Source: a virus
Length of the DNA stretch: 64,000 nucleotides
Reading direction: 5' to 3' (one strand)
IMG/VR virus record: IMGVR_UViG_3300036770_003093
Span: 54,244 to 118,243 of that record
Positions 7,044 to 64,000 of the stretch are shown here, one piece after another. The notes beneath the pieces were generated by a model that did not search any database, had not been told where the DNA came from, and saw only the letters and a list, made by a program, of their open reading frames with translations. Position numbers and translations under genes: made by a program. Within the stretch, counting starts at the first letter, position 1; each line of letters opens with the position of its first letter.

Positions 7044-9248
7044 TTATTTAAAGTTTTTAAATGGACTCCTCTTCATACCTACTGGCAATACAGATTTGCC
7101 CATGTGTCTAAACGGACTATTATTAAATTTACTCAATTTATCTGATTTTTCCAATTTACCGTCATCTCTAATTACACGCTTTACATATCCCCGGTTTGTT
7201 TGCTGAATTTTAGCAAATGCTACCAGGGCAGAAAAAGCAACTAATCTATCCACGTTAAGACCATCTTGATAAGCCTGCATTTCGCGCAATAGCATTATAT
7301 CAGGTATACGTTCAACACCAAATTTTGTACGTACAACTTTACCATCTTCATCTATTTCCTCATCTAGCTTTTCTTGCAGATACTCAATAGCATAAGATAG
7401 AAGATGACTTTTAAATAAGGTGCCGGTATTCTTCCAACCATAATCTGCATATACAGCTTTGTTAGAAGTAATTTCTTTCAAGAAAAGTATCTGATCTTTT
7501 GGTACCAAATACTTTTGCTTACGCTTCATCATCATGTATTGAATAAATAAGCTGACGTTATTCTCTACAAGAGTCCAAGCATTATAAAATTCAATTATGT
7601 TTTCTAGGCGCTCATGAGTTTGCTTAATATCATCAAAACGGCCACACCAGGATGCAACAATTTTATCTCCCTCTACATAACTATTTACAGTATCAGCTTC
7701 AACCTTTGTAACTTCCGTTGGAGCTTTATACACAAATATCGAGCACAACGAATCTGACGTTGTAGTTTTTCCTTCTCCCACAGGGTCAATAGACGCGTAG
7801 TACATGCCAAAAGACGGATCCTTAACAGGGCGCTCGTATATAACCACGACACCCTCTTTATCAACCGCATTTTTAGGGACTGGAAATTCATTAATAGGGA
7901 GCTTACGAGTTTCTTTAATAACAACTTTATCATGTTCATCACGAATTAAATTAACATATTCAATAGAAATTTCTTTATCTAAAATACGTCTAATTTGCGC
8001 ATTAACAAGATGTTGTGGAAACTTTGACTCCTTTCTATAAGCAAAAGCCTCTTCTATATTTCTAGGATGCTGTGATATACGCAATTGATACTTATCTGCC
8101 GGCAACTCTTTCTTCCATGTGGCAAACTGTTCTTCTAATGCTACAAGGGCTTCTTCCACTTTTGAATTGCCATATTCGTCGATAAAGGGTGGCATTGACC
8201 ACTGCTCTGGTATGAATAATCCAGATTTTCCATGGGTGCCGTCTTTATCAATAAGATTTGATTCCACCGCGTAAATATCATTTACCTCTGGTTTTAGAAT
8301 CATTTCTTTGAGAGGTTCACATTGATCAAGATCACCTACAGATCCTGCTGCTATAAACATACCACTGGTTATAAAACCAGATTTTAGTGCAGGTCTTATA
8401 TACTCAAAAGTATCATTCATCTTTGGTGCAATACCGGCTTCTTCATGAAAGAAGTATTTACATGGACCACCTACACCATTTGTGGGATCTTTCTCAAATG
8501 ACATACCTTGAATAGTACCTTTAAGACCAACCTCACTTTTTCTATTACCCTTACGCACCTCAATCTTCTGTTGCCACATTAATGTCTTACTAGGATTGAA
8601 TGGTCTATACCATGCAGTATGCTCATTCAAGAAAGCAGCATATTCATCTAGCATTTTCCAGGTACCTTTCTCATTAATGTAATCTTTAAGACTAGCACCC
8701 ATTTTTAAGGTAACACCCTCTTCAAACCAAACCTGATTTATAAGCTTTGCAGAATGAAAGTATGAACTAGCAATCTGACGTTTCTTAAGAATGGCGCTGT
8801 GTTTATAATGAAGCTCTGCTAGTAACTCATAAAGGGCCATATGATACTGCGCGTCGCGAACTTTTGCAAAACCAAACAGGCTCTCTTCCTTATCGTAAAT
8901 AGGTAAGAAATTAAGCCACATGTAGTAATCACGGCATACATACCATGTCTTATCACCAGAAATAACTATTATACCATTTCTGTTTTTTACTTTCTGATCA
9001 TCCCAGTAGTTGACAAAATCTTTGCTTTTAATAGGCGCCTGGCAAAAATAGTTGCGTTCATTAAATATGGTTGCCTGTTCGTTAAAGATAGCAGTGTCTT
9101 CATTAAAACCATACTGACCTGGTTCTTTAAACCGGTCAAGTACAAAAGATTTAAACTCTTCACGATTACCAAATTCTGTAACTTCCCAGTTTCCATTACG
9201 CCAGGTTGGTATACGCTCATAGTATTTTACACCACTCCTACTGATCAT
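7044..9248 (-). CDS. terL: Terminase large subunit (ATPase and nuclease)
   Basis: 734 aa DNA-packaging motor. Visible motifs: a variant Walker A at 155-163 (KKRQIASSY, the adenine/arginine-type form lacking GKT, as in many TerL proteins), Walker B with catalytic Glu at 266-272 (FFHEEAG), and the RNase H-like nuclease with first acid D488 in ASIDPVGEG (485-493) and a second acidic site near VENN (561-564). The length is at the upper end for the family because of an approximately 140-residue N-terminal extension. It overlaps the upstream 170-aa gene by 11 nt, suggesting translational coupling, and is followed immediately by the portal gene. Confidence 0.93.
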   Translation of the reverse strand: MISRSGVKYYERIPTWRNGNWEVTEFGNREEFKSFVLDRFKEPGQYGFNEDTAIFNEQATIFNERNYFCQAPIKSKDFVNYWDDQKVKNRNGIIVISGDKTWYVCRDYYMWLNFLPIYDKEESLFGFAKVRDAQYHMALYELLAELHYKHSAILKKRQIASSYFHSAKLINQVWFEEGVTLKMGASLKDYINEKGTWKMLDEYAAFLNEHTAWYRPFNPSKTLMWQQKIEVRKGNRKSEVGLKGTIQGMSFEKDPTNGVGGPCKYFFHEEAGIAPKMNDTFEYIRPALKSGFITSGMFIAAGSVGDLDQCEPLKEMILKPEVNDIYAVESNLIDKDGTHGKSGLFIPEQWSMPPFIDEYGNSKVEEALVALEEQFATWKKELPADKYQLRISQHPRNIEEAFAYRKESKFPQHLVNAQIRRILDKEISIEYVNLIRDEHDKVVIKETRKLPINEFPVPKNAVDKEGVVVIYERPVKDPSFGMYYASIDPVGEGKTTTSDSLCSIFVYKAPTEVTKVEADTVNSYVEGDKIVASWCGRFDDIKQTHERLENIIEFYNAWTLVENNVSLFIQYMMMKRKQKYLVPKDQILFLKEITSNKAVYADYGWKNTGTLFKSHLLSYAIEYLQEKLDEEIDEDGKVVRTKFGVERIPDIMLLREMQAYQDGLNVDRLVAFSALVAFAKIQQTNRGYVKRVIRDDGKLEKSDKLSKFNNSPFRHMGKSVLPVGMKRSPFKNFK

Positions 9249-23097: not shown

Positions 23098-23263
23098 TTT
23101 TACAGGTTGGTAAACCGTAAGCTTCCACTCTTTAAACATTCCGGGAGAACAGGCTATGCAGGAACCACAGTTAACACTCATATTGTCTGATGTATCAGAA
23201 GTGTTCTGCCTCATACCTGTTCTTACGAATCTTTTTTATTTTAAACATTTAACCCTCAATCCT
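23098..23263 (+). ncRNA. Structured leader with a 23-nt repeat
   Basis: This 166-nt gap starts with the 23-nt repeat (23105-23127, containing GGTTGGTAAACC) found again at 23663. ACAGGT (23102) can pair with ACCTGT near 23214, and a hairpin TCTGA-TGTA-TCAGA sits inside an ACACT/AGTGT stem. It ends in an AT-rich leader to the ATG at 23264. It may be a cis-regulatory leader. Confidence 0.5.
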
Positions 23264-23662: not shown

Positions 23663-23731
23663 GGTTGGTAAACCGTAAGCTTCCAAATTTTTCTTTAAGG
23701 TTGATAAACCTTGACAAGCATGTGGGGCAAC

Positions 23732-23801
23732 GACACCATTCTATCTATTACTGCAAGTAAAATAGATAGTATCAAACACTTTTGCAGAGTGTAATGGTAT
23801 C
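23732..23801 (+). ncRNA. 70-nt predicted three-way junction
   Basis: An 8-of-9 closing helix GACACCATT / AATGGTATC encloses two perfect hairpins: CTATCTAT...ATAGATAG with an inner TACT-GCA-AGTA, and ACACT-TTTGCAG-AGTGT. tRNA-sized, but with two arms instead of three. Confidence 0.6.
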
Positions 23802-23914
23802 ATATGAGATATAATCTCTATGATTTAGCGTTTGTGCAGACTTAAAAATCATGCAGTTATAAGCAACTTGATATGTTGTGGAAGTTACATAACTTTAAAA
23901 GCAAAATGCTTATC

Positions 23915-23967
23915 TCTATCTCAAAAAAGTCACAGAGGTAGATGCTTAATGGTTTGTGACGAACCAT
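23915..23967 (+). ncRNA. Hairpin pair with complementary (kissing) loops
   Basis: Hairpin 1 has the stem TCTATCTC / GAGGTAGA (23915-23922, 23935-23942) with loop AAAAAAGTCACA. Hairpin 2 has the stem ATGGTT / AACCAT (23949-23954, 23962-23967) with loop TGTGACG. GTCACA in loop 1 and TGTGAC in loop 2 are perfect 6-nt complements, so a kissing-loop contact or pseudoknot is predicted. Confidence 0.6.
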
Positions 23968-24246
23968 AAAAATTTGGGAGTATATGCGTTAAGCCACATG
24001 ATGCAGACTGGTAATCTGTTGAATCCCATTTATATGACAACTAACAACCGACAGGGGGGTAAATACTCACCTTGTAAGTGATCTACCAAAGATTGCGAGT
24101 CCTCAACAAGCTGTTAAATCAGCCAACATTCTTTTTTAGTAGTTATTTTTTCTTATATGGGATAAAGCATAGAAAAAAATCTACACCTCTTGAAGGTTAC
24201 CAAAGAGTATAAATAAATGGTAGCTCAAACTCAAAAACTTATTATT

Positions 24247-24435
24247 ATGAAAGAAACATGGTTATTGGTTTGTGAAGAATTTGGTATTCTCGACAAATGT
24301 TTAGCATCATCAAAAGATGAAGCAAGTGATATATTCAAAAAGAATAATTCATACATTGATTGGTCAGAATCAGATATATTATCAGAAGCTGATTATATGA
24401 ATGAACTTGAACTAAATTCTTTTGAATGTCAGTAA
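24247..24435 (+). CDS. Small acidic protein between RNA blocks
   Basis: 62 aa from the ATG at 24247 (MKETWLLVCEEFGILDKCLA...). An in-frame ATG at 24217 is possible, but the AAACTTATTATT leader fits the later start. Its pattern (WLLV...F...SSKDEASDIFKKN...YIDW) reads like a small alpha/beta fold. A terminator follows at 24448. Its function is unknown. Confidence 0.65.
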   Translation: MKETWLLVCEEFGILDKCLASSKDEASDIFKKNNSYIDWSESDILSEADYMNELELNSFECQ

Positions 24436-24447
24436 AAATCTTCTACA

Positions 24448-24478
24448 CTCCCTGAGATAGTATCAAAGGGAGCTTTTT
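24448..24478 (+). terminator. Intrinsic terminator after the 62-aa gene
   Basis: Stem CTCCCT / AGGGAG with a 13-nt loop, followed by CTTTTT. Confidence 0.8.
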
Positions 24479-24609
24479 ACGAATCAGAGTTAACTTGAAC
24501 AAACGATAGTTCTCAGATTGATGATGTTTCTTTTATCAACCGTGCGGGGCAGTAATCCTCGCCGCAACTAGTAAGACTAACCAATAATGTCTTACAAAAC
24601 AATCTCAAA

Positions 24610-24686
24610 GCCAGCACTAAGAAACTCGGCGGTCTTATGACCAATGTTTCCTTGCAACTAGAAATAGTGTGCTAAATAGTGCTGGC
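24610..24686 (+). ncRNA. 77-nt RNA closed by a 10-bp helix
   Basis: GCCAGCACTA (24610-24619) pairs exactly with TAGTGCTGGC (24677-24686). Inside are GAAAC...GTTTC, which encloses GGTC-TTAT-GACC, and CTA-GAAA-TAG. Together they make a three-way junction like that at 23732. It has no T-loop, so it is not a normal tRNA. It lies in a 640-nt gap (24436-25076) with no gene that I can support. Confidence 0.6.
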
Positions 24687-24694
24687 TTCATCTT

Positions 24695-24890
24695 TCTCTC
24701 TTCACTAACTTTAGGGTGAATAGTTGTAATCTTCAGGCAATGTAAGTAAACTACCTAAATAGCCATAACGGAAGTGCTTAAGAGCTTTCTGTTGTGTTGA
24801 TGGACAATATGTTCTTTTAGCTTTAGAAGAGATTATAACTAAGTGTTGAGAAAATCTCTCTTCACTAACCGCAAGGTGAACAGTTGTGAT
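24695..24890 (+). repeat. 36-nt direct repeat heading RNA elements A and B
   Basis: Copies at 24695-24730 and 24855-24890, 160 bp apart, share TCTCTCTTCACTAAC, then five variable nt, GGTGAA, and AGTTGT. The variable bases lie in the loop of a TTCAC/GTGAA hairpin, so structure is conserved while sequence changes. Confidence 0.8.
24721..24841 (+). ncRNA. Tandem RNA element A (about 121 nt)
   Basis: TAGTTGTAATC (24721-24731) pairs with GATTATAACTA (24831-24841), 11 bp with one wobble. A GGACA-ATA-TGTTC hairpin lies inside. It is preceded by the 36-nt motif (24695-24730) that also precedes element B and overlaps the closing helix. Confidence 0.55.
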
Positions 24891-24995
24891 AGACAGGATT
24901 TTGTACAATCCTGACCACTGGTATAATTAAATAGTTTTGTAGTATGCCTCTACCATAAGGAAGGCTATAAAATGTTCATTATTCTATCACAACTG
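24881..24995 (+). ncRNA. Tandem RNA element B (115 nt)
   Basis: A perfect 13-bp closing helix, CAGTTGTGATAGA (24881-24893) with TCTATCACAACTG (24983-24995). Inside are the perfect hairpin CAGGATT-TTGTAC-AATCCTG (24894-24913) and a GCC/GGC hairpin near 24946-24965. CTCTTCAC upstream can further pair with GTGCAGAG downstream (7 of 8). Paralogous to element A by its 5' motif and 3' AGTG. Confidence 0.65.
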
Positions 24996-28692: not shown

Positions 28693-28792
28693 AGTCAGGT
28701 GGCAGAATTGGTAACAGTTCCTGGGCTATTAAGGATGCTGGAAACGGTAGATAGAGAGATTCTTAATGCGGGTTCGATTCCCGCCCTGGCTC
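28693..28792 (+). tRNA. Second tRNA-like gene with atypical interior
   Basis: A 7-bp acceptor AGTCAGG / CCTGGCT (one wobble), T8-G9, a D-loop with TTGGTA, and a perfect T-arm GCGGG-TTCGATT-CCCGC. The D-stem is poor, and the 52 nt between D-arm and T-arm do not give a normal 5-bp/7-nt anticodon arm; the best helix is ATTAAG (28728-28733) / CTTAAT (28762-28767). It shares its first 20 nt almost exactly with the other tRNA-like gene (GTCAGGTGGC-GAATTGGTA). It may be a class II tRNA, a tRNA with an insert, or a decayed copy. Confidence 0.5.
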
Positions 28793-55621: not shown

Positions 55622-55662
55622 ATGGGGGATTGAGCTTATGCTCTTTCCCCCATTTTTTTTTA
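55622..55662. terminator. Bidirectional terminator between convergent genes
   Basis: ATGGGGGA (55622-55629) pairs with TCCCCCAT (55646-55653), enclosing GAGC-TTAT-GCTC. A run of eight T follows on the plus strand; on the minus strand ATTTAAATTTT follows. It ends both transcripts. Confidence 0.9.
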
Positions 55663-58600
55663 CTTACGCGCTTCAACAGATTCTTGTGGCATGATTCCTC
55701 TGCCCACTGGGTCATAGAACTTACCTTTAACACCAAATAGACTTAGAGTATGGTTCATAATCTTGTAGCTATCTTTTTCTTGCCATGAGAATGGACCAAC
55801 ATCTCTAGTATACTTAGCTTTCTCTGAGCCAATTGACATATAGAACATGTCTTTTAGCAATGTTCCCATTTGACCTATTGACCTGCCAAATACTAAACTT
55901 GTTAAGTCAGCATTTTCACGAAGGTCTTCTAAACCAAGTTTTGGTACTGGGATAAAAGATGTTGTTTCTGCAAATACGTTTTTAGAAAACAAAATCAAGT
56001 GTTGAGCTAACCACCAATCAACGTTAAAGTTATTACTAAACATATCTCCTGATTTTGCCCGCAACTTTTTATATCTATCGTCATCACCTGGGTCATATCC
56101 AAACAGTATTGTAGACATCATGTATAGCATAGCTATAATGATAACCTCCATTAGTATTTTACGAAGAGCATACTTCTCTTCTTTGCTCATGAACTTCCAA
56201 TACTTATTTGATACATTAGCCATTTTAATTAGTGCAAGAACACCCTCAACATAATATCCTCTTTCTACAGTGTTCATTGCCCAATTATACCTGTATCCAC
56301 CAACATTACCATCCCGGGTACTAAAACCAAATCTATTCATAAACATTTCAGTAAAATATTTACGAAGGAAGCTTGTTACTTTATATGCATAGAACTTATT
56401 AGCCATAGGTAGGTCAATATCAGCATATGCACCATAAAGTTTATTAGCAGCATTTTGCATCAACGTTTTAAACTTAGCATACTCAGTACCACCTAAGTCA
56501 TATTTTTTATCAACGCCGTCTTTCAATTTCATTTTACCAGAAGCATCCAGCTCCCAAGCATCAATGTACCGGATGTTTATCTTCTTACCATCACTAGTAG
56601 TTCTCTCGATGATTTTATGATGCATCATCCCAAAGAATAACTCTAAAACAGATTGTCTCTCTAAAAACTTACGAGGAGACATAAAGAAAGACAAACTTGT
56701 AACATCGCTAATAAATCCACGACTTTGAGTTTTACCAAAGTTTTGGTTAAAGTAACTCTGGCCGGGATCAAAGTTTAACATCATTTGTGTCTGTAGAGAA
56801 GGTAAACCTTTCTCATATCTCTGGCCCTGCATGCGAACCATTTGTTGGTGAGCCATTCTACTACCCACAGCCAAACTATACAGCGTTATGTTCTTACCAC
56901 CCGCAGCCTCAATAGCATTTTGTACAATCTGTCCACCCCAGTTCTTAGTAGCAGATACTAAATCTAAAGCAAAGAATCCAAATGATACTTGCTTCATAAA
57001 GAACTTGGTGATTTTATTTAGGTATGGATTATCACCAAAACTATTATTCTGTATACCTAAAAACTCACGATCATAAAGATGTGATATCTGAGCAGCTCTT
57101 AAATCTTGCCGGCGTTTATCACGAACATACTTAGTTATACCCTTTACACGAGCAATGTTTTTGTTTACAAGCTTAGTATTTTTCTGAGCATTTTGTTCTG
57201 AACCAGTGAATTCTTTAAGTGCTCTACCCAATGGGTCCATATCACTTAGCTGTTTATAGCGCATCGCGCTGAATAAGTACTTGTGGAAAGTTCTTATTAC
57301 ATCTAGTGATACCTGGTCAGTTTCTAATCTAGATAATCCACCAATTGGAATATATTCCTGCTCTTCACCTAATGCATTTACACGAACCATGTTCTTTTGA
57401 GAATCATAGTTTACATCTGAATCTGCAGTTTCACGAAATAGCGGTTCCTCTTCTCTAGCCTCTCTACTTACTAAACCTTTAATTTGTGTCCATGTACGCA
57501 GAGCTTTTTTCTTAATCTCGCCGCGAAGAATTAATTCTTGATTGTCTTCTATACCAAATCTTGGTAAGTCAAGATAAAGCTTACCATATGTAGATACTAC
57601 ATTTTGTGTTTGAAGATGGTACTTTTTCATAATCTCTAATATCTTATAGATATCAGAGTTTTTGTCCATGGCCTCAAACTCTTTGTTTATGTACCTATCA
57701 TCTTTAGCTGAGTTTCTATCTCCTGGAACATAAGGTCTAGGTAAGAAATTAGGATTCTCAGAAAGATTAGTGTTGTCGATATAAACACCTACATAACTGG
57801 ACCAGTCATCTTTCTTTAAAAGCTTGTATTCTTTTTTTACAGAACGATCATAAAATCTTGAACCGGGTACAGCGTTAACTGTTATATACTCACCTGTTTT
57901 CAGTTTTACCGTAGTAGTCTTTAAATAAGACTCATTAGTTGGTCTAATAATATTCCATAGATACAACCTCTCGTAGTAAACACCATCTTTATTTTCTTTT
58001 TGTACGTGATTTGCTAAAAACCAATCTTTAAAAGATCCATCAAGAGACATTAGAAAATTAGCTGTTGCGGCGTCAGCAGAAATATTAGTAGCTTCTTCAG
58101 CATTAACTTCATCTCTACCAAGCTTACTCATCCAAAAGTTTATAGTATCTACATAATCCTGATTTGGTTCTTTACTAGTAAGATCTGAAATATTACCTAA
58201 CAAACTGTAATAAATATCTTTATCCGCTTTACTTAAACCCAGAGCATCTTTCTTAGTTCTAAGAGTAGCAAACTCTGTAGCCTCAGATGGGGTATGCATT
58301 GTTGTCTTGTTATTAAGTTCATTGTATCTATCCCATTCAACAGAAGATAACCCAGATACACCAACTTGTTCTCTTTGAATTTGAACTATCTCTTCTTGTA
58401 AGTCTTTTACTTTCTTAAATGTTTCTGGTGATAAAACAGTTACATCAATTTGACCACTAGGATCCCGGGCAAGAATTAAAAGGTCATTGATCTCAGAATG
58501 TATTTCAGTAATTCTTGTGTTTCTAGCACCAGCAGGAAACTTAGCATTAATGAAATCTGTTAGTGCTTGTATTGCACGCTGTTTATCATCAAAGTATTTT

Positions 58601-61600
58601 TCATTGAATTCAACACGAGTGTTTTGATCTAACCACTCCATTAACCTTGCTTCCCTTTCTTCTTCATTTAATCCCTCAGCAATCAAACTATCTTCAAACG
58701 CTGAAAAAGCTTTTTCAAAAGCGCCCTCTTTAAGTTTATACTCATAAAACTTCCTACTCTTTTCAGCGTATTCTTGATGAGTCTTTGCTTTTGTTAAATC
58801 AAATATCCCACGAGCTGGATCATCAATCTTTGGAGTACCATCTTCATATGTAAGTTTAGATAACTCTTTTAGTTGACGTTCTAGAGATCTAATGTTTGAA
58901 TAGCTGTTGAAACGATCTAATTCTGTTTGTAAGGGGGTTCTTGCATTCCGCAGCTCAGTAAGAATAATCTCCTTCTCCATTAATGCATCCCGGGTAACAT
59001 CATTCTTATCATAAACAGAATCTTTTACATCGTAATATTCCCGATCATACATCTGCCACATATAATCAGATTTGAATTTCTCCAAAGCTTTATATGCAGC
59101 TCTAATAGCTGTTTGATCTTTACTCTCTATAGCTTTTTGAAGACCAAATTCTAGTTGAGAAAGATCAAACCGGTAATCTTTAAATCTATCCATGTATGAC
59201 CACACCCTTTGCAGTACTAACTCACCTTTTTCATTAATGTCAGCGACAGCATCTTCAAAAGCTAAAGCCTTACCAAGAAGTAAAATTTCATTCTTGCTTA
59301 GATTTTTAAGGAAAGGTTGTAACTCTTCTATAAGATCGTTAGATATGCGCGCGGTCTCAGCGTCAATCTCAGCATATTTGTTTTTAAGATATGCAAAGAA
59401 TGGACCAGATATCAAACTTTGACTAGCACTATATGATTCTAGATACGCATTTAACCAGTTCATTCCTGGCCCTTCACCAACTAACTCAGCTCTAATCTTC
59501 TCAGGTGTAATCTCTACACCCTTGTAGTTTTTTATCTGAGCCTTAAGTGCAGACTCAGCGCCTCTAGACATTTTGCTTTTATCTGCTTCTGTTAATGGTT
59601 GATTAGCAATAAGTTTTTCAGCAATTTGCTCTGCAAAAGCTTCATCACCAGTATCAATTCTAACAATGTTTTTAAACCTTTCACCAAAATTTTGTTCGAT
59701 GTTCAGTCTCATGTCTTTAGTTAAGTCACCTAAAAACTTAGTAAGCTGTTCTTCAAGAATTTTATTTGATTTTCTTTTTATGACAGATATGCTTGTTGAC
59801 ATCGCACTTACCGTATCGTTAAAATCCCTGATGCCTTGTTTTTGAACAGCGTTATTTAAGTCACTATCCTGAATTACCTCTTGAAGAGGGTTAATAAAAT
59901 TCTCTTCTACATACAATGCTAAATCACGATAGTACATAATTCTAGCAATTGTATCAGGGGTAACATCCTCTGGTTTTAATTCTTCTAAAGCCCTAATATT
60001 TTGCTTTATAACATTAAATACTTGATTGTATCCAAACAGAGCTCTTGCTAATGCGGCAGCTTGTCTGTTCTTAGCAATAGCATCTTCAGCCATAGCATTT
60101 ACTATGTTCCTTCTATTTAAGCTAGAATCTGACATTAACTGAGAACGCATCTGCTCAAATACAGAATCTTTCTCAATTAAAGCTTTTATCTCATTATCAT
60201 TAGAACGTTTAACAAGCTGTTCAAATTCTTGAGCTGATACTGTAGCAGCATCAATTAAACTTAAAACAGTTGCGCCGGTGCTTTCTACGGCATTTACAAA
60301 CTCTATCTGCTCTCTAGTTTCAAGGCGTATAAACTCGGCAACCTCGTCATTAGTAAACACCTCAGAACTTAAAGCAAACTTTTCTCCCGTCATCATATCT
60401 ACCAGCTGCTTAATGCTGGTATTAGTATTAAGCTTTTCGATTTTAATACTCTTACCAAACAGACCTCTTAACAACTGTTTGATATGGAAAAGAATCTTCT
60501 CAATCCATGACTTATACTGTTTAGATACAGGCTCACCAGTATTACGCATTTGTCCCTCAAGACCCATGGCTGTAACAATAACCTCCTCTTTTAATCTATC
60601 TCCAGTATAATCATAGTTTCTTTGAACTCTAGCTAATACCTTTTGACCCTCTGGTGTAGAAATCAACTCTTCATATAGAGCATTAAACAACTTAGGATTC
60701 TGTATTCTTATAGATTGTATCAAAGGGTGAGCAAACTCGTGGAATACAGTTTCTGCAGTAATTTGGCCTTCTACAAAGTACACTTTGCCATTATAGAAAA
60801 ACGCGGGCTCCCCTCTATACTCAATACCACTATCTTTTAAAATCATAGCCGCTTCCTCGGAAGAAGCAACTGTTTCAAAGGGAACACCTAAATTATCAGA
60901 TAACACCTGCATAAGTGAACTGATAGCTTCATTACCAAAGTTATTACTGGTTTGTTCTTGGCTGTAAGTGGCGCCGGGATTATAATTATCCTCACTATTC
61001 TCAAAGAACTCTTCTACTTGATCTCTATAATCTGGGAGCTTAATGCTTACATCCCTATCTAAGTTATCTGTGGGTGTAGAAACATCTGGTCTAAAGAAAG
61101 AAATCCTGTTTTTTAAATCTCTATTTACATTAATATCAACTTCATTCCAGGTATTACCATATTCGTCTGTAACTAATACAGGGTTATAACCTTGTTTTTT
61201 AAGAACATTAGCTATAGTATTTTCATAGAAGTTATAGATAGGTGCTAATGCACTGAATCCTTCTGTTTCTACTCTTTCAAGTTCTTGTTTAAGTTGATTT
61301 ATTTCATTAGTATTATCTACCTCTTGTATATAAATATCATATCCAGACTCTGAATCTAATTCATCTTTTCTTTTTTGAGCTTTTTCTTTAGTTTTGAAAA
61401 AACCTATGAAATTATTATATTCATCAATTAGATTAAATCCTCTCTCCTGTTTTTCAAGTTCCTTAATCCTATCTTCTTTTTGTTTTTTAAATTCCTCTAA
61501 AGTAGAATGTCCTTCTATTTTACTAGCTGTATTACCTGTAGGAAATAATACTCTCTCATATCCTTTTTTAGCAGAGTCTTGTATAATCGATTTAACAAAG

Positions 61601-64000
61601 AATGTAACCCAGTTATTGTCTTTGTTTAGGAGTTGTAAAAATTCGTTGCTGCTATCATTTTCTCTTATATAATTTTTTGATATTTTTTCATCATTTCTGT
61701 ATTCTTCAAAAAGTAATTTTGAAAGTTCAGGATATTTTTTTTGTAATATTGCTTTTCTACCTATTTCTCCTTTATACTCTATTTTAATAGAGGGCGAGTC
61801 CGTATAAATTACACCATTTACTTCTTGTTTACGATTTCTTTTAATTAATCGTAACATATCTCTACCTTTCTGAAATAAATCAGATTGTACTTCTAGTATT
61901 CTTCTTGTTTTAGAACCATATTTCTTAGTTTCTTTATATTCCTTTCTTTTACCTACCCAATCATCTATTTCTTCCCAAATATCTTCTTTTTTACTAATTT
62001 GTTCATCACTTCTAAACCATCCAATACCTTTATCAGTAGCAAATTGAGCATGTCCTTTAATAGAAGGAGTAATAGCTGGTGTAGCTATTTCATTTTCTGT
62101 ATAATTAGTACCTCCTGGAACTGTTAAATTAGAGTAATATTGAGTAGGGTTGCGTCCTTTTTTTAATTCTATTTCTATTAGTTTTAATTCTTCTTTAGTA
62201 GCAGGAACTCTCTCATATTCGTCTATCCAACCTATTCCACTAAGTTTAAAATCTTTACCGGCTACAGAAACATAACTACCTTCTAAATCTGTAGAAGAAC
62301 CATCTTTAGCAATATTAATCTCAATAGTATAACTATAATTAGCAATGAATGATGCTAGTTTTTCTTCTATACTTTCACCAGATGATTCTCTTAATAATAA
62401 GACTTGTTGCTTAGGGATCTGTAGATCTTGTTGAATTTTGTTCCAAAATTTATCAGTATTACCTAAAGATTTATACCACTGATTTATCTTAGATATATTG
62501 TTATTTAAAATCTGAACCACCTTAAAATCATAGTATACCTTATTAGAATCAAATACTTCTTCTACACCTGTTTTGATAACATTATCTCTACCAACAAAAT
62601 CCTTAAATAATTCTATATCTTTTTTAGTTCCTAATTGATGAACTTGTTCTTTCTTATATGTAACATATGTTTTTTCATTAACTCCTTGACCACTATCTCT
62701 TCCAATTACTGAATCAGTATTTTTTTCTCTTACTTCGTCAGGAGTTACATATTCATCTCCTAATCCACTTTCTCTAAACTCTTTAGCTCTATCTGTAAAT
62801 TCATAGTATGAATCAACAATAGTAGGGTTGGTTATGTTTAAAAGAATTGGAATTCTTTTACCTTTTATTTCTTCTAGCTCTGTTAACCAAGAACCGAAAT
62901 CTGTAGAATAAAAAGCTTTATTATCTGTTAGGAATATAGTCCCGGTTTTATTAACGTGATATACAATATCTTTTACTTGACTACCGGGGAATATAGTATC
63001 TAAGTATTGAGAGTATTGTTCAGGAGTTCCTATAGAAGCTAGCTCAGGATTAGAATCAAATAGCTCTTGTACTCCTGGTTTGATTGGTGTAGATGGTATT
63101 TTTTGAAAAGGTATATCATCTTGATCCCACTGAGTGAATGGTATATCCTCAGATATAGGCTTAACTTCACTTCTAATTAAACTTCTAGGATACTTCTTAG
63201 CTACTTCTTTAAGCTTGGCTATTTTAGTGTTGATTAACGCTTGTTCTGTGTAGTTTTTTTTAGGAATTATTTGTTCATTTAACTCTTCTTCAGATAGTGA
63301 CTCTAAATATTTTAATCTTTGTTCTTGATTACCTAATAAACCAAAGGGTTCTATTGCTAATAAGATTTCTAGTTCTTCCTTAAATGTTTTTGGTTTTAAA
63401 ACTTTAGCTTTAAAACTCTCAATACTTGTAGTATTCTCTTTAGTTTGAGTTGGTTGGATACCTTGTTCATAATTAGATTTTAAGTTTTTAATATATTCAA
63501 CAGCATCTTTAATTTCATAAAAAAATTCAAGTTCCCCTTCTTTTTCAGAATATACATAATACCCTTCAACTTTATTATACTGTCCTTTCTCATAATCAGG
63601 ATTTTCTAATCTTTCTCTAATTGTTGTAACACCATATTTATTTACAAAAGAGTTTAAATTGGTAATCTCAGGCTTAACTAACTTACCATACTTTTGGTCA
63701 AGTATTCTATTGATACTATCAATAATTTTTTTAGTCTGATAAGGAATATCTTCATCATATTCTAATCTAAAGTTATTTCCTGTAAGAGAAATACCTAATT
63801 CATTATGATGATGCGCTAAATCATCTACAATAGAAGCTAAATTTGGTTGTATAGCATTTACATTACTTAAAGAAGGATATTTAGTATAGCTAACACCAAG
63901 CAGTTCAGATTTTTTATCCTTGCTCACTTTTTCAGAAGCATCCCACACACTTCCTGAATAAACATCTGTATTTGCAGCCCATTTAATATCTTTAGATTTG
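55660..64000 (-). CDS. Giant polyvalent protein (probable virion-associated), 5' end outside window
   Basis: At least 2,779 codons; the frame stays open to the right edge beyond a GTG at 63948, so the start is missing. Visible parts (residues counted from 63948): an ADP-ribosyltransferase-like region near 340-430 (FYSTDFGSWL...DSVIGRDSGQG), a large-polyvalent-associated block near 670-710 (ILEVQSDLFQKGRD), RVLFPTGNTASK near 803, a zincin metallopeptidase motif VFHEFAHPLI near 1069 (HExxH), long coiled coils (1200-1900), and a C-terminal part with hydrophobic helices (VIIIAMLYMMSTILFG near 2600). This matches the 'polyvalent protein' class of phage multidomain proteins thought to be injected with the DNA. 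No RNA polymerase DxDxD motif was found. Confidence 0.85.
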   Translation of the reverse strand, partial: KSKDIKWAANTDVYSGSVWDASEKVSKDKKSELLGVSYTKYPSLSNVNAIQPNLASIVDDLAHHHNELGISLTGNNFRLEYDEDIPYQTKKIIDSINRILDQKYGKLVKPEITNLNSFVNKYGVTTIRERLENPDYEKGQYNKVEGYYVYSEKEGELEFFYEIKDAVEYIKNLKSNYEQGIQPTQTKENTTSIESFKAKVLKPKTFKEELEILLAIEPFGLLGNQEQRLKYLESLSEEELNEQIIPKKNYTEQALINTKIAKLKEVAKKYPRSLIRSEVKPISEDIPFTQWDQDDIPFQKIPSTPIKPGVQELFDSNPELASIGTPEQYSQYLDTIFPGSQVKDIVYHVNKTGTIFLTDNKAFYSTDFGSWLTELEEIKGKRIPILLNITNPTIVDSYYEFTDRAKEFRESGLGDEYVTPDEVREKNTDSVIGRDSGQGVNEKTYVTYKKEQVHQLGTKKDIELFKDFVGRDNVIKTGVEEVFDSNKVYYDFKVVQILNNNISKINQWYKSLGNTDKFWNKIQQDLQIPKQQVLLLRESSGESIEEKLASFIANYSYTIEINIAKDGSSTDLEGSYVSVAGKDFKLSGIGWIDEYERVPATKEELKLIEIELKKGRNPTQYYSNLTVPGGTNYTENEIATPAITPSIKGHAQFATDKGIGWFRSDEQISKKEDIWEEIDDWVGKRKEYKETKKYGSKTRRILEVQSDLFQKGRDMLRLIKRNRKQEVNGVIYTDSPSIKIEYKGEIGRKAILQKKYPELSKLLFEEYRNDEKISKNYIRENDSSNEFLQLLNKDNNWVTFFVKSIIQDSAKKGYERVLFPTGNTASKIEGHSTLEEFKKQKEDRIKELEKQERGFNLIDEYNNFIGFFKTKEKAQKRKDELDSESGYDIYIQEVDNTNEINQLKQELERVETEGFSALAPIYNFYENTIANVLKKQGYNPVLVTDEYGNTWNEVDINVNRDLKNRISFFRPDVSTPTDNLDRDVSIKLPDYRDQVEEFFENSEDNYNPGATYSQEQTSNNFGNEAISSLMQVLSDNLGVPFETVASSEEAAMILKDSGIEYRGEPAFFYNGKVYFVEGQITAETVFHEFAHPLIQSIRIQNPKLFNALYEELISTPEGQKVLARVQRNYDYTGDRLKEEVIVTAMGLEGQMRNTGEPVSKQYKSWIEKILFHIKQLLRGLFGKSIKIEKLNTNTSIKQLVDMMTGEKFALSSEVFTNDEVAEFIRLETREQIEFVNAVESTGATVLSLIDAATVSAQEFEQLVKRSNDNEIKALIEKDSVFEQMRSQLMSDSSLNRRNIVNAMAEDAIAKNRQAAALARALFGYNQVFNVIKQNIRALEELKPEDVTPDTIARIMYYRDLALYVEENFINPLQEVIQDSDLNNAVQKQGIRDFNDTVSAMSTSISVIKRKSNKILEEQLTKFLGDLTKDMRLNIEQNFGERFKNIVRIDTGDEAFAEQIAEKLIANQPLTEADKSKMSRGAESALKAQIKNYKGVEITPEKIRAELVGEGPGMNWLNAYLESYSASQSLISGPFFAYLKNKYAEIDAETARISNDLIEELQPFLKNLSKNEILLLGKALAFEDAVADINEKGELVLQRVWSYMDRFKDYRFDLSQLEFGLQKAIESKDQTAIRAAYKALEKFKSDYMWQMYDREYYDVKDSVYDKNDVTRDALMEKEIILTELRNARTPLQTELDRFNSYSNIRSLERQLKELSKLTYEDGTPKIDDPARGIFDLTKAKTHQEYAEKSRKFYEYKLKEGAFEKAFSAFEDSLIAEGLNEEEREARLMEWLDQNTRVEFNEKYFDDKQRAIQALTDFINAKFPAGARNTRITEIHSEINDLLILARDPSGQIDVTVLSPETFKKVKDLQEEIVQIQREQVGVSGLSSVEWDRYNELNNKTTMHTPSEATEFATLRTKKDALGLSKADKDIYYSLLGNISDLTSKEPNQDYVDTINFWMSKLGRDEVNAEEATNISADAATANFLMSLDGSFKDWFLANHVQKENKDGVYYERLYLWNIIRPTNESYLKTTTVKLKTGEYITVNAVPGSRFYDRSVKKEYKLLKKDDWSSYVGVYIDNTNLSENPNFLPRPYVPGDRNSAKDDRYINKEFEAMDKNSDIYKILEIMKKYHLQTQNVVSTYGKLYLDLPRFGIEDNQELILRGEIKKKALRTWTQIKGLVSREAREEEPLFRETADSDVNYDSQKNMVRVNALGEEQEYIPIGGLSRLETDQVSLDVIRTFHKYLFSAMRYKQLSDMDPLGRALKEFTGSEQNAQKNTKLVNKNIARVKGITKYVRDKRRQDLRAAQISHLYDREFLGIQNNSFGDNPYLNKITKFFMKQVSFGFFALDLVSATKNWGGQIVQNAIEAAGGKNITLYSLAVGSRMAHQQMVRMQGQRYEKGLPSLQTQMMLNFDPGQSYFNQNFGKTQSRGFISDVTSLSFFMSPRKFLERQSVLELFFGMMHHKIIERTTSDGKKINIRYIDAWELDASGKMKLKDGVDKKYDLGGTEYAKFKTLMQNAANKLYGAYADIDLPMANKFYAYKVTSFLRKYFTEMFMNRFGFSTRDGNVGGYRYNWAMNTVERGYYVEGVLALIKMANVSNKYWKFMSKEEKYALRKILMEVIIIAMLYMMSTILFGYDPGDDDRYKKLRAKSGDMFSNNFNVDWWLAQHLILFSKNVFAETTSFIPVPKLGLEDLRENADLTSLVFGRSIGQMGTLLKDMFYMSIGSEKAKYTRDVGPFSWQEKDSYKIMNHTLSLFGVKGKFYDPVGRGIMPQESVEARK

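Follow-up and report, generated by a model that had tools for sequence, protein, structure and literature searches.

The two adjacent hairpins at 23915-23967, reported in an earlier note to carry perfectly complementary loops, were found to be present as claimed and belong to a single RNA at 23694-24105, about 412 nt long, which starts at a hatchet ribozyme and ends in a conserved 3′ tail. Comparative evidence shows base pairing in four long-range contacts of this RNA, namely kissing pairs A, B and C and a helix between the tail and the hatchet core, and a homologous architecture was found in about 50 other phage loci. This structural part of the explanation, which draws on sequence comparison, is regarded as nearly certain. 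The earlier note had described pair B only; the hatchet, which lies 60 nt upstream, was not mentioned there, nor were pairs A and C or the helix between tail and core.

The hatchet ribozyme, the hairpin pair and their genomic setting

The window, that is the whole stretch of 64,000 nt analysed, forms the final 64 kb of an IMG/VR virus record 118 kb long. Its terminase was most similar (about 25% identity) to those of crAss-like phages and of other Bacteroidota phages, and the portal, the major head protein and the DNA polymerase matched phage families. The hairpins were found in a non-coding stretch between ORFs. The features of this region are as follows.

23691-23854, plus strand: hatchet ribozyme RF02678 (cmscan 66.4 bits, gathering threshold 51)
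23694-24105, plus strand: extended hatchet RNA after predicted self-cleavage, about 412 nt, from the hatchet C^U site (5′) to the conserved tail (3′)
23741-23792, plus strand: P4 arm of the hatchet with kissing pair A, CTGCAA (23751-23756) with TTGCAG (23782-23787)
23839-23842, plus strand: GACU in the hatchet core strand GUGCAGACUU, pairing with tail AGUC (24098-24101) by covariation and RNAalifold
23855-23894, plus strand: helix AGUUAU/AUAACU with an inner CAAC hairpin, 3′ of the hatchet, from the sequence and the alignment with L003-L005 and L012
23915-23942, plus strand: hairpin 1 of pair B, kissing segment GTCACA (23929-23934)
23943-23948, plus strand: linker TGCTTA (RNA UGCUUA), 6 nt, whose GCU recurs in the linkers of several groups
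23949-23967, plus strand: hairpin 2 of pair B, kissing segment TGTGAC (23955-23960)
23975-24028, plus strand: three-way-junction domain with a hairpin at 24004-24018 and loop segment TGGTA (24009-24013; pair C)
24051-24075, plus strand: hairpin ACAGG..CCTTGT, with different stem pairs in L012, L017 and L020 (by eye)
24078-24096, plus strand: 3′ hairpin GTGATC(TACCAAA)GATTGC, of which TACCA (24084-24088) pairs with TGGTA (24009-24013; pair C)
24098-24105, plus strand: 3′ tail AGTCCTCA, pairing with the hatchet core GACU
24217-24435, plus strand: next same-strand ORF downstream, 72 aa (alternative start at the internal ATG, 24247)

Hatchet ribozymes cut between C and U at the base of P1 and leave a 5′-OH. 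The membership of the window RNA in RF02678 was indicated by its score and by the presence of the core segments UGUGGGGC, GUGCAGAC and AAAAUCA together with P1 and P2 (GCAUG/CAUGC). Cleavage is predicted, by analogy with the assayed hatchets (PMC4604424), at C23693^U23694 in the sequence UUC^UUUAAGG at 23691-23700. The relatives scanned with Rfam were also found to contain a hatchet above threshold. Rfam covered none of the region beyond the hatchet, where searching up to an E-value of 10 gave just sub-threshold chance matches, such as eukaryotic snoRNAs.

Hairpin 1 contained a stem of 8 bp including one G-U pair, TCTATCTC (23915-23922) with GAGGTAGA (23935-23942), and a loop of 12 nt, AAAAAAGTCACA as DNA and AAAAAAGUCACA as RNA, of which the earlier note had given only the 3′ half, GTCACA. 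This was followed by the linker and by hairpin 2, with a stem of 6 bp, ATGGTT (23949-23954) with AACCAT (23962-23967), and the 7-nt loop TGTGACG (RNA UGUGACG). The final six bases of loop 1 are the exact reverse complement of the first six of loop 2. Both stems were contained in the MFE fold prediction with pair probabilities of 0.77-0.99, calculated without a kissing term.

The hairpin-pair score of the local 280 nt (best adjacent pair with complementary loops) was equalled in 2 of 1000 dinucleotide shuffles, and the score of 43 was reached at 5 places on the 64-kb plus strand, against 1, 3 and 0 in three shuffles. The claimed rarity by chance was thus found to be moderate, so that one sequence alone is suggestive, not convincing; the covariation in relatives was decisive.

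Several other elements were observed in the same region. An exact 22-nt repeat, GGTTGGTAAACCGTAAGCTTCC, was found at 23105-23126, just upstream of an ORF, and at 23663-23684, just upstream of the hatchet; it was also present near the hatchet in L005 and L004 and resembles a small leader or processing element that this phage places close to genes. Further non-coding, apparently structured stretches without an Rfam match were found at 24473-24700 and 24690-24960; in L003 and L004 the piece 24487-24528 immediately precedes the hatchet, and the pieces near 24690 and 24855 are alike. A tRNA-like Rfam match with long inserts at 28693-28792 was barely above threshold (30.3 bits), and ARAGORN found no tRNA in the window. 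The minus strand contained an open reading frame of 2762 aa at 55660-63948.

Covariation of the kissing pairs and of the tail-core helix

The relatives were collected with a wider hatchet pattern, a tail pattern and a phage collection, which gave 46 unique hatchets with enough downstream sequence; in most of these, two adjacent hairpins with complementary loops were present behind the hatchet. In the three near relatives found by exact pattern (near-identical core, L003-L005) the stretch from the hatchet to 24105 was retained and the flanks were different. The pattern CACATGATGNNGACNGGTAANC gave matches in close relatives only, and the search through the downstream 355-aa protein returned no relatives. 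The only hatchets in the named phage and plasmid collections were of the short crAss type, and some of the collections contained none. Of the 22 contigs that the tail pattern gave, about 14 were rejected as chance matches to coding sequence or to unrelated DNA. The viral contig L017 contained a tmRNA gene at 8424-8820 (62.7 bits), and there was a type III hammerhead ribozyme at 621-675 of L055, on the same contig as a hatchet.

The earlier note had left it to homologues whether both loops of pair B change together, and they were found to do so in six complementary classes, GUCACA/UGUGAC, CUCAC/GUGAG, AUUCCA/UGGAAU, AUUCCACU/AGUGGAAU, CUUCCAC/GUGGAAG and ACCAC/GUGGU. Among the sequences with pair B about 22 are close relatives, not independent, and its equivalence among the groups is set by position and architecture, not by sequence homology. 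The AUUCCACU/AGUGGAAU class had 7 of 8 pairs formed in L048. MAFFT misaligns the kissing hairpins between groups (their sequences are unrelated), and the pairs were therefore compared by architecture and permutation. The mean Watson-Crick run of the distinct loop pairs was 6.6 for cognate partners against 4.8 between loci, the observed sum was reached in none of 20000 permutations of partners, and the per-locus shuffles gave 0-14 per 1000 (ten loci), tests which correct only in part for a hairpin finder that selected partly on complementarity. The locus L012, found through a hatchet 3′-strand pattern blind to the loops, was found to contain the complementary pair B loops CUCAC and GUGAG on stems entirely unlike those of the window (UCUUACAG/CUGUAAGA and UGGGU/ACCCA). 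In every group the two hairpins are adjacent, with a linker of 5-8 nt as parsed, or of 5-9 nt according to the start chosen for stem 2. The loop-loop contact in pair B is supported by this covariation, and the comparative evidence shows base pairing.

Pair B was not universal. It was absent from the short gut crAss forms (L035-L037, L052 and L086, the call in L036 being spurious), which points to an accessory lock rather than a part of catalysis, and it was not recognised in L055, L076, L087 and L103.

Pair A, CUGCAA/UUGCAG in the window, was found as 13 distinct complementary sequence pairs in relatives, with an extra 5-bp call in L105 that is doubtful. These included CUUCUAA/UUAGAAG, CUACUAA/UUAGUAG, UUAUCAG/CUGAUAA, CUACCAA/UUGGUAG, CUGUUAA/UUAACAG, CUAUCAA/UUGAUAG, UUACAG/CUGUAA, ACGCAA/UUGCGU, AGCGAC/GUCGCU and others, and no permutation of partners among 20000 reached the observed complementarity. 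Pair C joins the loop of the three-way-junction hairpin with that of the last hairpin, UGGUA/UACCA in the window and UUGGUA/UACCAA, CUAGG/CCUAG, UAGGAA/UUCCUA or UGGGAA/UUCCCA elsewhere. It was represented by at least 7 distinct complementary sequence pairs (0 of 20000 partner permutations matched the observed value); many sequences contained just the 4-bp UAGG/CCUA, and the L038 call GGTG/CACC is doubtful.

In 21 aligned relatives, RNAalifold predicted pairing of the tail AAGUC with GACUU of the core strand GUGCAGACUU. Because these pairs were nearly invariant in that alignment, hatchets with a non-U base after GAC were scanned as a test, the tail motif GUC.U[CU]A being sought within 430 nt downstream or the shorter stretch available. 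Seven true hatchets with a non-U core were found, each with a single copy of the tail motif, and the preceding base was complementary in all seven (GACG with CGUC in four, GACA with UGUC in three). The set of 56 unique hatchets contained 49 occurrences of GTC.T[CT]A, and in 47 of these the base preceding the motif complemented the core base (T-A 40, G-C 4, A-T 3), against a motif background of 0.2 per 400 nt; the two mismatching occurrences are extra copies. The hatchets L121 and L145 from bacterial assemblies added two more G-C cases, one with the slightly different tail CGUCCACA, so that the matching tail base was present in 9 of 9 non-U hatchets overall. The tail test is free of the bias of a finder selecting on complementarity. 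By this covariation, GACN of the core and N′GUC of the tail N′GUCCUCA form a conserved 4-bp helix that closes the RNA.

Comparison with published hatchets and other phage RNAs

The window RNA shares P1, P2, the conserved core and the expected cleavage site with hatchet RF02678 (Li et al. 2015, PMC4604424). The hatchet has been described with P0-P4 from 210 metagenomic examples, and the construct Ht-1 stops at P2 with UUCG in place of 44 nt of the P4 loop (PMC4604424), whereas P4 of the window RNA holds a kissing pair. The published model ends after the 3′ strand of P2; here a 3′ domain and the tail extend about 60-350 nt past the model, and the tail was found in neither the Rfam model nor the assayed construct. 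The words pseudoknot, phage and downstream are absent from the text of the hatchet biochemistry study (PMC4604424), and the tail and the kissing pairs were unmentioned in that study and in the review; the original 2015 discovery paper and the 2019 crystal paper may contain such a mention. From the comparison of dozens of phages, the published hatchet descriptions examined seem to lack most of this RNA, tail included.

The hatchet crystal dimer is driven by the palindromic ACGU at nt 67-70, which is dispensable for catalysis and of unknown purpose (PMC7357161). In our own mapping this palindrome falls on GACGUU of the consensus, which is the tail-pairing strand. In the crystal, two molecules pair through ACGU (PMC7357161), whereas in the window GACN would pair with the tail of the same transcript; the dimer could be due to the omission of the tail.

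Like ROOL and GOLLD (PMC12286853), the window RNA is a large ornate phage RNA with several stabilising kissing loops, but it is shorter, usually lies directly before an ORF and differs in sequence and secondary structure. Identity with either was rejected, their Rfam families giving no match even at E-values up to 10, and the trait of covarying kissing loops, present here as three pairs, is a likeness in working and not in membership. We know of no hatchet in ROOL or GOLLD. RAGATH-6, RAGATH-7 and RAGATH-9 were found in the same non-coding clusters of the relatives but are separate Rfam families, and Rfam gave no match to RAGATH families in the window. A contig binned as Sphaerochaeta (L137, 6464-7288) contained RAGATH-7 and two tandem hatchets and is probably a misbinned crAss-like phage.

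Downstream genes and the proposed role of the RNA

In 30 of 54 loci, the next same-strand ATG ORF was found to start no more than 50 nt past the tail, compared with 16% for randomly chosen positions; the gap was often 18-20 nt, and the ORFs are small and differ among loci. From the cleavage site to the tail, three size ranges were observed: the short gut crAss forms of the RNA have 180-230 nt, some intermediates 270-350 nt, and the long forms, to which the window RNA belongs, 390-500 nt. A processed compact mRNA leader is proposed because an ORF usually lies close behind the tail and these small ORFs differ. In the window, however, 111 nt separate the tail from the next ORF, and in L076 a tRNA follows the tail directly, so that a leader of the next gene is not a general description; a general intergenic processing element or a free non-coding RNA is a possible alternative role. 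The 3′ flank at 24106-24216 (CAAGCTGTTAAATCAGCCAACATTC...) was also observed in L017 (from position 612), whose RNA belongs to another sequence group, and this common flank is read as modular swapping of gene-proximal leaders. In another phage type, a different repeated leader, CCAATTGCT..AGGTTC..GAGCACAA, was observed before several ORFs (L012 10110-10180 and 10430-10490, and L096 past the tail).

In the proposed explanation, the hatchet would cleave the polycistronic transcript of the phage at C23693^U23694, in the manner of the assayed hatchets, and the RNA would remain attached to the downstream message, forming a folded 5′ leader that begins with a 5′-OH. The leader would separate the message from the upstream RNA and leave an AU-rich stretch ahead of the start codon accessible to the ribosome; the locks would hold it folded and may couple complete folding to cleavage. 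The explanation as a whole, with pair B kissing most likely within one molecule of an extended hatchet RNA that acts as a 5′ leader, is considered fairly probable, and the leader or processing function by itself is given even chances. The idea of the earlier note that the loop-loop contact compacts the RNA fits this arrangement.

For pair B itself, chance complementarity of two ordinary hairpins has next to no probability: a few similar-scoring pairs do occur elsewhere in the window, but the six covarying classes and the permutations of the relatives refute it. A switch in which GUCACA and UGUGAC form an alternative stem replacing both hairpins is very improbable. Pairing of the two segments would give a hairpin whose loop has 20 nt; against this, the two hairpins reach high pair probabilities in the fold prediction, the alternative of 5-8 bp would rarely form alone, and all three helices are retained together in every group. 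Covariation does not distinguish cis from trans contacts, and the joining of two or more copies by reciprocal contacts of loop 1 with loop 2, in line with the dimerisation as in RNA cages that the earlier note had suggested, was weighed as an unlikely alternative. A ROOL kissing loop marked by covariation as tertiary proved to be quaternary in the cryo-EM cage (PMC12286853), and a straight coaxial stack of about 20 bp is estimated to place the linker ends about 50 Angstrom apart, which is hard for 6 nt to span, so that a contact in cis needs a bend. A contact in trans would not need the hairpins to be always adjacent with a short linker, as they are in every group, and this constancy favours the contact within one molecule, which is most likely. 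A broader view is improbable: every native hatchet would be the core of a larger RNA that the tail-core helix closes, and pair B of the long forms would act between molecules, so that the leader makes defined dimers or higher assemblies on phage mRNA.

At the level of the whole RNA, a stand-alone phage non-coding RNA, with its 5′ end made by the hatchet, other processing at the tail and a function either in trans or as an RNA machine comparable to ROOL and GOLLD, is a tentative alternative of a weight clearly below that of the leader. It agrees with the size, the ornate fold and the several kissing loops, with the position in non-coding phage clusters beside RAGATH-7, RAGATH-9 and tRNAs, and with the tRNA right after the tail of L076, through which RNase P could release the 3′ end. 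No U-run terminator was found past the tail in the sequences seen, and a same-strand ORF is usually close behind; both speak against it.

These observations would mean that the hatchet model used for biochemistry, and probably that used for crystallography too, is without the conserved core-pairing tail, and that a kissing contact is present in the P4 loop of natural hatchets. Pairing with the tail would offer a simple explanation for the palindromic crystal dimer. The observations also connect hatchets with crAss-like and related phages, and with the region 5′ of small genes in these phages, so that hatchet function would become directly testable.
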